64,000 nt of DNA from positions 1 through 64,000 of the forward strand of contig JAEUQK010000004.1 of assembly GCA_016789265.1 (NCBI GenBank). Reading direction: 5' to 3'. Both the position numbers and the translations under genes were made by a program. Within the stretch, counting starts at the first letter, position 1. Each line of letters starts with the position of its first letter. Positions 2,837 through 6,844 of the stretch are shown piece after piece. The notes beneath the pieces are model-generated. The model did not search any database. It saw nothing but the letters and a program-made list of their open reading frames with translations, and was not told where the DNA came from. This stretch comes from Blastocatellia bacterium (GTDB lineage: Bacteria; Acidobacteriota; Blastocatellia; Pyrinomonadales; Pyrinomonadaceae).

Positions 2837-2848
2837 CCCTAAACGTGC

Positions 2849-2872
2849 GATCTGAACCATGAAGTTCAGATC
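2849..2872 (+). terminator. Hairpin after the Spy-like gene
   Basis: GATCTGAAC (2849-2857) pairs perfectly with GTTCAGATC (2864-2872) across a six-base loop, a few bases after the stop codon. There is no T-tract directly after it, so it may be an RNA-stabilising hairpin rather than a terminator. Confidence 0.5.
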
Positions 2873-2904
2873 CATCTTCGGCTCTTAGCTATCCAAAACG
2901 ATCA

Positions 2905-2943
2905 GTCCGTGGCAACCCCAAGTTACCACGGACATTTTCTTTC
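2905..2943 (+). terminator. Rho-independent terminator
   Basis: GTCCGTGGCAAC (2905-2916) pairs with GTTACCACGGAC (2922-2933) with one mismatch and a five-base loop, followed by ATTTTCTTT. It ends transcription of the Spy-like gene and separates it from the restriction-modification island. Confidence 0.75.
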
Positions 2944-2990
2944 AATTCTCACTTCTCATTTCTCATCTCTCACTTTTACGCTCGTTGCCT

Positions 2991-3081
2991 ATGAATTGCC
3001 TCTTATATGAATTGCCTATGAATTGCCACTGGCTTTAGCCAGTGGTCAGGGGGCAGAGAATGGGCCACGGGGCTTAAGCCC
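2991..3081. repeat. REP-like element: short direct repeats and two palindromes
   Basis: Three ATGAATTGCC units lead into a 20-base perfect inverted repeat, CCACTGGCT TT AGCCAGTGG (3026-3045), followed 24 bases later by the 12-base palindrome GGGCTTAAGCCC (3070-3081). Two adjacent hairpins of related GGCT/AGCC core are the general build of REP/BIME elements mobilised by TnpA-REP-type transposases. No such transposase is in the window, so the assignment is inference. Confidence 0.5.
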
Positions 3082-3191
3082 AACAGCTCTCAGGACACAG
3101 CGATTCCCCTATCTAACTGCGTCCTTCCCGAGAACAACACTGATAACACCTGTCAGTAGCCCGCACGTTAGTAGGGGCTCAGCTAACCATC

Positions 3192-3228
3192 GGATAGTCG
3201 ATTTTGGACTATTCGAAATCGGACTATA
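3192..3228 (+). promoter_or_regulatory. C-box-like operator of a restriction-modification controller
   Basis: ATAGTC (3194-3199) and GACTAT (3207-3212) form an inverted repeat, and a second GACTATA lies at 3222-3228. Seen another way, two 15-base tandem units (3198-3212 and 3213-3227) match at 12 of 15 positions. GACT/AGTC half-sites around a TAT core are the hallmark of C-boxes bound by XRE-type C proteins. The site ends 25 bases before the XRE start codon, as expected for autoregulation. Confidence 0.6.
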
Positions 3229-3253
3229 CCCTCGCCCTAACGGACAATCTGCA

Positions 3254-3511
3254 ATGGAAAAATCTATCTATACGAAGGAGTACTCCCTCTTTCTCGAACA
3301 GCTCCGAAAAGCCCGCGAAGAAAAGGGATTGACGCAGACTGACGTGGCAGAACGCCTCGGCCAAACACAGAGTTTCGTGAGCAAGGTCGAACGCGGCGAA
3401 CGCCGTCTCGACATCGTCGAACTCCGCGCCTTTTGCTTGGCACTCGACACACCGTTTCGGTTATTTACCGCCCGGATGGAGAGCGCATTGAACGCGAATT
3501 TCAAGCATTGA
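3254..3511 (+). CDS. XRE-family controller (C protein) of the restriction-modification system
   Basis: An 85-residue helix-turn-helix protein, almost all of it one XRE/Cro-C1 domain: LRKAREEKGLTQTDVAERLG, then QSFVSKVERGERRLDIVEL. Size and fold match the C proteins that time expression of type II restriction-modification genes. The ATG at 3254 is chosen because the domain starts just after it and the frame upstream crosses non-coding repeats. C-box-like repeats lie immediately upstream, and the methyltransferase gene starts 26 bases downstream. It probably binds those repeats as a dimer and controls its own operon. It could instead be a simple repressor of the methyltransferase. Confidence 0.8.
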   Translation: MEKSIYTKEYSLFLEQLRKAREEKGLTQTDVAERLGQTQSFVSKVERGERRLDIVELRAFCLALDTPFRLFTARMESALNANFKH

Positions 3512-3537: not shown

Positions 3538-4689
3538 ATGAAAATATCGGGGATCGAAACGGAAACCAAACTGCGGCGAACATACCGGCTGGGAGAGCTA
3601 TTTTCGGGACCTGGGGGAATCGCTCTAGGTGCGAGTCTGTCTAAAGTTTCCAATTCAGATTTTGAACTTGCAATTCGTCATGAGTGGGCAAGTGATTATG
3701 ATCGAGATACTTGTGACACTTACATCAGAAACATTTGTCCATTGGCGCCACACACCGTCATTTGTACCGATGTTCGATCGCTAGATATTGAGTGCTTAAC
3801 ACCTATCGATGGGTTTGCGTTTGGCTTCCCATGTAACGACTTTTCGATTGTCGGTGAGCAAAAAGGAATAAACGGTAAATTCGGCCCCTTGTTTAGCTAT
3901 GGCGTCAAGGTTCTTCACAAGTTTCAGCCTCAATGGTTTGTTGCTGAAAACGTCGGTGGCCTTAGACATTCAAACGATGGCGTCACCTTCAAGTACATAG
4001 TTGAAGAGCTGCGGGGTGCCGGCTATTTTGTAACCGCTCATCTGTATCGTTTCGAGGAATACGGAGTACCCCAATCTCGACATCGGATCATCATTGTCGG
4101 TTTCAGAGATGATCTTAATCTAAAGTTCCAGGTACCAGCCCCACGAAATCGGCGGCAAATTACGTGTAGGGAAGCGATAGAAGAGCCTGCGATTCCAGAG
4201 AACGCTTCAAATAATGAGCTAACCAAACAATCATCGATTGTGATCGAGAGATTAAAGCATATTAAGCCCGGTGAGAATGCATTTAACGCAGACCTACCCC
4301 CTTCCCTCAGACTTAATGTACGCGGTGCGAAGATAAGTCAAATCTACAAGCGCCTAGATCCCAATAAGCCTGCCTACACTGTAACTGGAAGTGGAGGTGG
4401 CGGTACACATATCTACCACTGGATTGAACCGAGGGCACTAACGAACCGTGAAAGGGCTCGCCTTCAGACTTTTCCGGACGACTTCGTGTTCTGCGGTTCA
4501 AAGGAAAGTGTTCGAAAGCAAATCGGAATGGCCGTACCACCAAAAGGGGCGACCGTAATATTTGAGTCCATTTTGAGGACTATTGCGGGAATCAACTACG
4601 AGTCAGTGCCCGCGAACATCGATTTGTACGACGGCCTTTTTAATCGCTGTTTTGAAAGTATCAGTGAACAGTCACGAGTCGCCGTCTGA
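3538..4689 (+). CDS. DNA (cytosine-5-)-methyltransferase
   Basis: A 383-residue type II modification enzyme that transfers methyl from S-adenosylmethionine to C5 of cytosine in DNA. Motif I is LFSGPGG (residues 21-27). Motif IV is GFPCNDFS with the catalytic Cys at 99; Asn replaces the usual Gln after Cys. Motif VI is AENVGG (136-141) and motif VIII is QSRHR (179-183). The target recognition region follows, then motif IX near RLDPNKPAYTV (272-282) and motif X at IGMAVPP (329-335). The recognition site cannot be read from sequence. It lies between the controller gene and a candidate endonuclease, with vsr further downstream, and its DNA is more A+T-rich than the flanks, consistent with acquisition by transfer. 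Confidence 0.93.
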   Translation: MKISGIETETKLRRTYRLGELFSGPGGIALGASLSKVSNSDFELAIRHEWASDYDRDTCDTYIRNICPLAPHTVICTDVRSLDIECLTPIDGFAFGFPCNDFSIVGEQKGINGKFGPLFSYGVKVLHKFQPQWFVAENVGGLRHSNDGVTFKYIVEELRGAGYFVTAHLYRFEEYGVPQSRHRIIIVGFRDDLNLKFQVPAPRNRRQITCREAIEEPAIPENASNNELTKQSSIVIERLKHIKPGENAFNADLPPSLRLNVRGAKISQIYKRLDPNKPAYTVTGSGGGGTHIYHWIEPRALTNRERARLQTFPDDFVFCGSKESVRKQIGMAVPPKGATVIFESILRTIAGINYESVPANIDLYDGLFNRCFESISEQSRVAV

Positions 4690-4708: not shown

Positions 4709-5539
4709 ATGTCCGACTACTACACATTAGTTGAAGCCTGTGAATTGCTTAAGCTATCCAAGAAATACTTGGAAAACTACGGTAAGGTCGGGAAAGAGCT
4801 AAATATTCAAAAGATCGGGAATCGAAATAAGATTGCAATCGACGAACTTAACGCGTGGAAACTCCAGCGTGAGTTTGGGCTGGTAACATTGGAAACACTT
4901 GACTATATTAGTTGCATTGAATTCGCAATTAGAAGTTTCTACAATTACAGCTCAACATCTGATTTTGGTACATCTACGCTGAGAGACGCTGGAAAATTCA
5001 TATCAAATTTTGCAATCGGAAAACTCGGAGAAATTGCAGTAAAGAAATTTCTGAAGCGAAACTTCGACATTGAAATAGCGTTAGATTTTTCTCTCAGGGA
5101 TGCGGTCGTTGGGCAAGACATTTCAGAAATGGCGCGTCCGCGGGTGGGAGGCCGTGTCTATAATCCACTTCGTCGCCGAGTTGCAATAAAGACAACCAAA
5201 ATGAAGAATGTCTGGCTAATTGTTCCCGCAAAGGAAGTCGAAGATCCGGATAGAAAATCTGACATCTACATATCCGTTCGAGCAGATTTGTTTCAAGACC
5301 ACCTTATACGGCTCTTGCGAGATCACAGTGCTCTGGAAAATATTAAAGCAATAATTCCGGCATTTGAAGACATACCTGCCGAAGTATGCGGATTCGCTTA
5401 TTACGACGACATTTCGTCAGTGCCTGCCGTTGAAGAATTACCCTTGCAGAGACAGGCTATTGGTCGTAGCTACATAATGAATACCGGGCGCTTAAACAGG
5501 ACTAAGAGTGAGTGGGATACAATGCTTGCAACTCTGTGA
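4709..5539 (+). CDS. Candidate restriction endonuclease with N-terminal helix-turn-helix
   Basis: A 276-residue protein I do not recognise by family. Residues 3-52 resemble an excisionase/MerR-like helix-turn-helix (YTLVEACELLKLSKKYLENYGK, ending in ELNAWKLQRE). Residues about 98-190 look like a PD-(D/E)XK nuclease core: a helix with GKLGEIAVKKFL (Glu108), an acidic stretch around Asp126-Asp137, and RRRVAIKTTK (Lys161) before the strand NVWLIVP. At the catalytic (D/E)XK position the sequence is Ala159-Ile-Lys161, so the usual acidic residue is missing and might be supplied elsewhere. The position 19 bases after the methyltransferase supports a role as the cognate endonuclease. The ATG at 4709 is preferred over frames running back into the methyltransferase. 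The DNA is A+T-rich. Confidence 0.6.
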   Translation: MSDYYTLVEACELLKLSKKYLENYGKVGKELNIQKIGNRNKIAIDELNAWKLQREFGLVTLETLDYISCIEFAIRSFYNYSSTSDFGTSTLRDAGKFISNFAIGKLGEIAVKKFLKRNFDIEIALDFSLRDAVVGQDISEMARPRVGGRVYNPLRRRVAIKTTKMKNVWLIVPAKEVEDPDRKSDIYISVRADLFQDHLIRLLRDHSALENIKAIIPAFEDIPAEVCGFAYYDDISSVPAVEELPLQRQAIGRSYIMNTGRLNRTKSEWDTMLATL

Positions 5540-5588: not shown

Positions 5589-5999
5589 TTGCCTGACAAC
5601 CTTACAGCAGAGCAGCGTAGGCGAAACATGGCCGCCATTCGAAGCCGCCATACTAAACCGGAAATTGTTGTGCGCTCAATAATTCATCGGCTGGGGTTTC
5701 GGTTCAGGCTCCACGTCGGATCGTTACCGGGAAAGCCTGACGTTGTTCTAAACAAATACTGCTCGGTAGTTTTCGTTCATGGATGCTTTTGGCATCGACA
5801 CAAGGGTTGTCGGCGGTGTGCAACACCGAAAAGCAATCAGGAATATTGGAACGCTAAACTCGCTGGGAACGTGAAACGCGATGCGAAGCACATCAAGGAC
5901 CTTAAGAAATTAGGGTGGCGGGTGCTCGTTGTATGGGAGTGTGAGTTGAAGAATATTCCAAAACTGGAGAAGAAATTGCTCGCGTTTCTGGCATTATAA
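5589..5999 (+). CDS. vsr: Very short patch repair (Vsr) mismatch endonuclease
   Basis: A 136-residue nuclease that nicks next to T:G mismatches arising from deaminated 5-methylcytosine. It therefore protects the target sites of the C5 methyltransferase 0.9 kb upstream. The fold is recognisable end to end: RRRNMAAIRSRHTKPE, LPGKPDVVL with Asp51, FVHGCFWHRH with His64 and Phe67-Trp68-His69, and zinc-type cysteines (CRRC). These match the known Vsr active-site residues. The start must be the TTG at 5589, because an in-frame stop lies at 5580-5582 and the next ATG would remove conserved residues. Confidence 0.93.
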   Translation: MPDNLTAEQRRRNMAAIRSRHTKPEIVVRSIIHRLGFRFRLHVGSLPGKPDVVLNKYCSVVFVHGCFWHRHKGCRRCATPKSNQEYWNAKLAGNVKRDAKHIKDLKKLGWRVLVVWECELKNIPKLEKKLLAFLAL

Positions 6000-6131: not shown

Positions 6132-6599
6132 TCAAAGATTTATCTGATATTGGATTCGTCTAGTTCGAATAATCTGCTCAAGTTCGGGAACCGAAAGTAG
6201 CGCGTGTGAAAGCGAATCGGGATTAAGGCAGACGAAGCAGAAACGGAATTTTTCGCCGAGGCGTTCGCCGAAGTCGAATTCGTTTTGGGTTGCGCCGAAG
6301 AAGAAGCCTTTCGGACTATTAGGTAGAAAAGCGCGGGTGCATTTGAGTTCGATTAGTGTGACTTCGTCGATATGAGTTTCGATAGCTTCAAGGGAAAGTT
6401 TCGCTCCCGCCAGTCTTGGAACAAGAACCATATCGAATGAACGCGAATAGTTTTTCGGTTGGTCCAGAAGTTCGAGAATCCGCCGTCGCTCATCTTTATC
6501 GACGAAGAAGAATCCTCGATTCAAGGATTCCATATACTGGATTCCTTCTTTTTCGGTCGCGTTATTTTTACGCGTTATAGTGAACGACTGGTCAGCCAT
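6132..6599 (-). CDS. Predicted PD-(D/E)XK nuclease paired with a XRE regulator
   Basis: A 155-residue protein of no family I can name. The central part has a PD-(D/E)XK pattern: SFDMVLVPR with Asp56, then, about 28 residues later, EVTLIELKCTR with Glu84-Leu-Lys86. GFFFGATQNEFDFGERLGE and a beta-strand (RFCFVCLN) follow, as in small Mrr/DUF3883-like endonucleases. The ATG at 6599 shares one base with the stop of the upstream XRE gene (TGATG), so the two are translationally coupled. That arrangement is typical of controller-endonuclease pairs in type II systems. No methyltransferase is on this strand; the C5 enzyme on the other strand may serve it. Confidence 0.6.
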   Translation of the reverse strand: MADQSFTITRKNNATEKEGIQYMESLNRGFFFVDKDERRRILELLDQPKNYSRSFDMVLVPRLAGAKLSLEAIETHIDEVTLIELKCTRAFLPNSPKGFFFGATQNEFDFGERLGEKFRFCFVCLNPDSLSHALLSVPELEQIIRTRRIQYQINL

Positions 6600-6844
6600 C
6601 AACGTCCACCTCGCGCAGGTTTAAAGTCCAATAGTTCGGAAAGGCTTGTATCAAACGTTTTCGCAAAAACGTCGACGTTGGTGAGCGAGAGGTTTCGTTC
6701 GCCGCGTTCGATCATGCCGATGTAAGTGCGGTGGAATCCGGTCAGTTCGGCGAGTTGTTCCTGAGAGAGGCCGCGGGCGAGTCGGAGTTCGCGGACGCGG
6801 GCGCCGAAGGCGTTCAGGAGTTTCTTGTTGACCTTTTGGGGCAT
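6599..6844 (-). CDS. XRE-family transcriptional regulator
   Basis: An 81-residue single-domain helix-turn-helix protein with FGARVRELRLARGLSQEQLAELTGFHRTYIG, then IERGERNLSLTNVDVFAKTF. It is the size of restriction-modification controller proteins. The ATG at 6844 puts the domain close to the N-terminus; longer frames upstream are low-complexity and cross non-coding DNA. It overlaps the downstream nuclease by one base. A 9-base perfect inverted repeat with two-turn spacing lies about 125 bases upstream and may be its operator. Confidence 0.8.
   Translation of the reverse strand: MPQKVNKKLLNAFGARVRELRLARGLSQEQLAELTGFHRTYIGMIERGERNLSLTNVDVFAKTFDTSLSELLDFKPARGGR

Follow-up and report, generated by a model that had tools for sequence, protein, structure and literature searches.

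The window, by which we mean the whole stretch of 64,000 nucleotides that was analysed, contains an operon with the gene order C-M-R-Vsr, headed by the controller gene P0001 (Table 1). The methyltransferase gene P0002 begins 26 bp past the controller gene. The AlphaFold model of P0001 (mean pLDDT 94.3) has five helices, with residues 39-47 forming the recognition helix. Its best PDB relatives by sequence are the XRE proteins 3f6w and 3eus, which come ahead of the C protein C.BclI in third place, so that closeness does not put P0001 among the known C-protein families. PADLOC Control_protein models matched P0001 at 2.7e-7 or weaker, below HTH_VI with 6.9e-11, and the match to HipB was weak. For the probable endonuclease P0003, a PDB relative was sought and none was found. 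The ortholog search of P0003 among 396 genomes returned its own genome only, viral contigs contained no ortholog and plasmids gave distant Thermus plasmid matches only.

Table 1. Coordinates of the operon genes and of the predicted control elements in the leader of P0001.
Feature	Position	Strand	Basis
O1, 19-bp operator palindrome ATAGTC-GATTTTG-GACTAT (ATAGTCGATTTTGGACTAT)	3194..3212	+	sequence and recurrence across homologs
O2, weaker overlapping operator copy (CTATTCGAAATCGGACTAT)	3209..3227	+	12/15 tandem match; GACT conserved
Predicted -35 element TTGGAC, in the right half of O1	3204..3209	+	fixed 17-bp distance to the conserved -10
Predicted -10 element TACCCT (family consensus TAnCnT)	3227..3232	+	family alignment
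P0001, controller gene, 85-aa XRE/Cro-C1 HTH protein	3254..3511	+	Pfam HTH_3 3.8e-14
P0002, C5-cytosine DNA methyltransferase	3538..4689	+	Pfam DNA_methylase 1.4e-69; PADLOC MTase_II 2.1e-113
P0003, probable type II restriction endonuclease	4709..5539	+	PADLOC REase_II PDLC03411 5.6e-17
P0004, Vsr very-short-patch endonuclease	5589..5999	+	NCBIfam vsr 2.7e-43

The minus strand of the window carries, within 6132-6844, a second XRE gene, P0005 (6599-6844), followed by P0006, which encodes 156 aa. P0005 is much closer than P0001 to the PADLOC control-protein models (3.7e-21). Relatives of P0006 (32-34%) directly follow GGGTTAT-class XRE genes in Verrucomicrobia (L046 and L084-L086).

The leader of P0001 harbours the half-site ATAGTC at 3194-3199 and the half-site GGACTAT at 3206-3212 and again at 3221-3227. 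The arms of O1 are separated by 7 nt (ATAGTC-N7-GACTAT). The centre of O2 is located 15 bp downstream of that of O1, and this offset is the source of two 15-base tandem units (3198-3212 and 3213-3227) that are identical at 12 of 15 positions. An earlier note on this DNA had described the inverted repeat with its further GACTAT copy, the tandem units and a controller gene for an 85-residue protein directly downstream of them, and all of this agrees with our analysis. The same intergenic region also contains a perfect 11-bp tandem repeat at 3006-3027 (TATGAATTGCC) and an adjoining perfect 9-bp inverted repeat at 3026-3045 (CCACTGGCT/AGCCAGTGG).

The 74-bp leader was compared with 5,000 dinucleotide-shuffled versions of itself: a hexamer occurred three times in 81 of them, a 19-bp inverted repeat as good as O1 was present in 320, and 13 showed repeat count and palindrome together. 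In the single sequence the leader repeats are thus only moderately unusual; a chance origin is ruled out by their conservation across species. The palindrome core TAGTCNNTTTTGGACTA has one exact match in the 3.88-Mb genome of the organism. Two further matches with 2 mismatches each were found, fewer than from a reversed control pattern. Since the genome holds a single such site, the regulon of P0001 is probably its own operon.

Conservation of the operator and promoter geometry

Homologs of P0001 were gathered from the same phylum, GTDB species genomes, viral contigs, genomes of other groups and plasmids. Upstream of the orthologs in L004, L005, L035 and L036 (proteins 65-77% identical), O1 and O2 are found nearly base for base, as can be seen in the blocks of L005 (GGGAATAGTCGATTTTGGACTATGCGAAATCGGACTATAGG) and L004 (AAATAGTCTGTTTTGGACTATTCGAAATCGGACTATACC). 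The block is also present upstream of homologs in Cyanobacteria, Planctomycetes, Betaproteobacteria, Armatimonadota and others. When leaders were scanned for palindromes irrespective of sequence, 128 of 187 contained a 19-bp inverted repeat in which no fewer than 6 of the 7 pairs matched, compared to about 31 in shuffles. With a mask that leaves out the variable bases, 125 of the 187 homologous genes reached a score of at least 8 (about 1.7 in shuffles); this half-site-blind mask was designed after the first loci had been viewed, and the later-fetched set is therefore the fairer test. The earlier note had read the repeats as an operator placed for autoregulation, a reading to be dropped if orthologous controllers were without them. 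The repeats turned out to be conserved upstream of the orthologs and of homologs in many phyla, directly in front of the controller gene and at its own promoter, and to all appearance the site is functional.

Viral contigs were in addition searched with the operator alone. Among the sites with enough sequence downstream, 3 of 78 of the GGACTAT type and 2 of 11 of the GGGATAT type had an XRE start within 200 bp, and we regard these matches as mostly chance. Upstream of the XRE gene of L008, three overlapping operators with 15-bp spacing were observed (GTATTCGATTTTGGAGTATTCCGTTTTGGGATATTCCGTTTTGGGATAT).

The 64 GGACTAT-class leaders were aligned on the palindrome centre, and the promoter was predicted from this family alignment and not from a generic sigma-70 scan, which called no promoter in the leader. 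The consensus AATAGTCgATTTTGGACTATTC.AaaatgGACT.tA.c.T corresponds to TTGGAC-17-TAnCnT. In the predicted -10 element, the A at position 2 carries 1.9 bits and the T at position 6 carries 1.7 bits, and the GACT of O2 carries 1.1-1.8 bits per position across the class. As the -35 element overlaps the operator, the conservation of TTGGAC cannot be ascribed solely to its role in the promoter. The predicted transcription start lies near 3239, about 36 bp from the centre of O1, and O1/O2 end 26 bp ahead of the controller ATG. The distance from the operator centre to the start of the controller ORF is 42-80 bp in all 64 loci. With TTGGAC inside O1 and a 17-bp spacer to the -10 element, O1 would cover the -35 element while O2 would take up the spacer. 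This is the layout expected of a repressor site and suggests autorepression.

In the GGACTAT class, the predicted 5'UTR comprises roughly 25 nt from the transcription start to the ATG. About half of the 64 loci, for instance L038, L043, L056, L061, L062, L072, L091 and L155, show a hairpin fold there. A z below -1.5 was obtained in 53% of these loci, compared to 6% of 303 control ORF starts. The stems have sequences unrelated between loci. The hairpin is absent from the close clade of the window itself, and an Rfam search with eight loci gave no match.

Recognition helices and half-sites

Residues 38-47 of P0001, which we take to align with the recognition helix in 434-repressor numbering, were compared with the half-sites of the homologous loci. 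Helices with T/S-Q from residue 38 together with K44 and R47 go with GG.AC.TA in 56 of 59 discovery loci and in all 8 later-fetched ones (64/67). Helices with P-Q and K44 but without R47 go with GG.GA in 25 of 30 discovery and 12 of 17 later-fetched loci (37/47), and in none of these 47 with GG.AC. Further pairings are those of D-Q helices with GCATAT, of PQSY..YERGERR helices with GGGTTTA, and of S-D at residues 43-44 with AGATAT. The mutual information with the variable dinucleotide, as a fraction of entropy, was 0.58 for residue 38 and 0.48 for residue 47, with 0.24 for the next best; these two residues are the best predictors among the scanned protein columns, all of which share one phylogeny.

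The protein tree was made without the helix residues 36-48, and with its 67 columns it is poorly resolved. On this tree the half-site class switches once on supported branches and seven times on the unsupported best tree. With a single supported switch, the correlation in 64 of 67 loci does not represent 67 independent events. The resolution of the tree does not suffice for a count of independent switches, so the half-site appears to follow the recognition helix in the sense of a strong correlation and not of a proven code.

In the P-Q class (loci such as L010, L067, L087, L090, L107, L178 and L221), 14 of 40 leaders have the centre of the GGGATAT operator about 36 bp away from the start codon, a distance equal to that between O1 and the predicted transcription start in the GGACTAT class. 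Judging from this spacing, these P-Q class genes may be leaderless.

Proposed autorepression and comparison with known controllers

The site itself, its conservation across phyla, the fixed promoter geometry, the correlation of helix and half-site and the R-M neighbourhood are direct results of the analysis. On this basis we favour, with a probability of about 0.7, the reading that O1/O2 form an autoregulatory operator-promoter at which P0001 dimers exert autorepression. One dimer would bind the 19-bp palindrome of O1, with each recognition helix reading one GGACTAT half-site, and a second dimer would bind the weaker, overlapping O2. Bound P0001 would cover the -35 hexamer at O1 and, at O2, the spacer as far as the -10 element, and would thereby shut off transcription of the C-M-R-Vsr operon. 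In a newly entered cell, the operon would at first be unrepressed and then be held at a low level as the controller accumulates. We infer binding of P0001 to O1/O2, repression instead of activation and this temporal role alike from the results above.

PvuII- and AhdI-type C proteins activate and then repress, and in an analogous scheme O1 would activate and O2 would repress at high controller level. The tandem sites of unequal quality, the R-M context and the C-protein-like fold of P0001 would suit such a scheme. However, we consider it unlikely, because O1 has its centre some 36 bp from the predicted start and covers the -35 element itself, whereas lambda-type activators are centred near -42. 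Moreover, a -35/-10 pair with 17-bp spacing is already recognisable, so that activation is not needed. It could also be asked whether O1 belongs to another regulator and lies near P0001 incidentally, given that we infer its binding by P0001 and that a second XRE gene, P0005, is found nearby. This is very improbable: the site accompanies P0001-type genes across phyla despite differing neighbours, its half-site varies with the recognition helix of the P0001-type protein, and no such site is present upstream of the second XRE gene. A classical GACT/AGTC C-box bound by a classical C protein is a shade less credible still, for although both tetramers occur in the leader and C.BclI is the third-best PDB relative of P0001, their order is reversed with no GACT-N(0-8)-AGTC, the conserved unit has TTTTGG and an outer TAT that are absent from the C-box, and P-Q relatives retain the 19-bp frame with GGGATAT and no GACT whatever.

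Classical C-boxes are paired GACTtatAGTC operators with GT between them, about 35 bp in total (PMC3115060). GACT-N(0-8)-AGTC was not found in 2837-3253, where only AGTC-N7-GACT is present. The description of the site as C-box-like in the earlier note therefore had to be abandoned, as the order is reversed and the conserved unit is a single 19-bp palindrome with a T-rich centre. On sequence grounds, the leader site is a conserved operator, apparently of the regulator itself, outside the classical C-box type. Like C.PvuII, C.AhdI, C.Esp1396I and C.BclI, P0001 is encoded by a small HTH_3 controller gene beside a type II R-M system, with two operators at its own promoter and the same fold. In contrast to classical C-boxes, O1 is a single 19-bp palindrome with an overlapping copy, and the polarity of the half-sites is opposite.

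In the C.Csp231I/C.EcoO109I class, the half-sites are CTAAG-N5-CTTAG, the two operators are spaced by about 18 bp and the protein has two extra C-terminal helices; correlations between recognition-helix residues and bases have been reported for this class as well (PMC3115060). This class is closest in layout to O1, with a long inverted repeat, an A/T-rich spacer and a location in an R-M control region, but its half-sites differ from GGACTAT, and CTAAG-N5-CTTAG is absent from the leader. The XRE-like controller C.Kpn2I has a site that extends into the coding region, acts as an elongation roadblock and has an outer repeat of only three bases (PMC6237814). Controllers likened to it by description are, as is P0001, nearer to XRE than to classical C proteins, and their motif, in which an outer inverted repeat flanks an A/T-rich core, resembles O1 (PMC6237814). 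At our locus, O1/O2 stop 26 bp before the ATG and neither enter nor cross the start of the controller ORF.

HipB operators have the sequence TATCC-N8-GGATA. Operators of the P-Q class read TATCC-N7-GGATA, with a spacer one base different, and both regulators have the XRE fold, whereas HipB belongs to a toxin-antitoxin context. RptR is an autorepressor of a defence operon with a Type I R-M system, and its TAGCTA binding site is conserved upstream of homologs (PMC12255303). P0001 is similar in the proposed autorepression of a defence operon and in the site being kept upstream of homologs. As members of the same family or motif, RptR (a different protein with no close PDB relative and a TAGCTA site) and LfsT (AAC...GTT motif) were both rejected. 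Sorokin et al. reportedly listed ten C-protein motifs in 2009, of which motif 8 is that of the C.Csp231I/C.EcoO109I class. In the literature searched, which did not include these ten motifs, no account of a GGACTAT/GGGATAT operator class was found.

Restriction-modification neighbourhoods of the homologs

Among the genes directly downstream of homologous regulators, at least 16 of 26 tested encode MTases or REases. The R-M types found there are mutually unrelated and include the ScaI, BamHI, TaqI and LlaMI families, the REase family PDLC03583, HsdR-like proteins and C5 MTases. In third place, an REase of the MutH type was found in one operon and one of the FokI type in another. The order C-M-R-V is found in the window and in L036. 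The cyanobacterial loci L037, L050 and L083 have the order C-R with an N6/N4 MTase gene divergent across the operator, and in L114 and L123 the gene after C-R lies on the other strand. Many homologs of P0001 are without a recognised adjacent R-M gene; the family is therefore not defined by R-M control, which is one of its uses. For P0001 itself, the location of the gene in the C-M-R-Vsr operon and the conserved operator O1/O2 at its own promoter argue that it has the role of an R-M controller and that its operator belongs to a class other than the C-box.

We see about an even chance that this widespread XRE family represents an alternative, exchangeable class of R-M control proteins with its own 19-bp operator class, whose specificity could be read from helix positions 38 and 47 and whose GGACTAT-class members would have a further layer of control in a conserved 5'UTR hairpin. 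The comparison shows that a second, non-C-box controller type is shared across phyla by R-M systems whose restriction enzymes are unrelated. Over a hundred protein-operator pairs form a natural data set in which changes in the recognition helix can be matched to changes in bases, and a swap of two residues and two bases would test this matching directly. In annotation, the operator could mark small XRE genes that are likely autoregulated R-M controllers.

At L036 (5001-8416), the C-M-R-V order of the window is found with M and Vsr 65% identical and a different REase of 519 aa whose C-terminal part is FokI-like, an arrangement that looks like an exchange of the endonuclease gene. In L043 and L107, the gene after the regulator encodes a candidate defence protein that does not belong to an R-M system (PDC-S31/DUF2971 and PDC-M30A, respectively).
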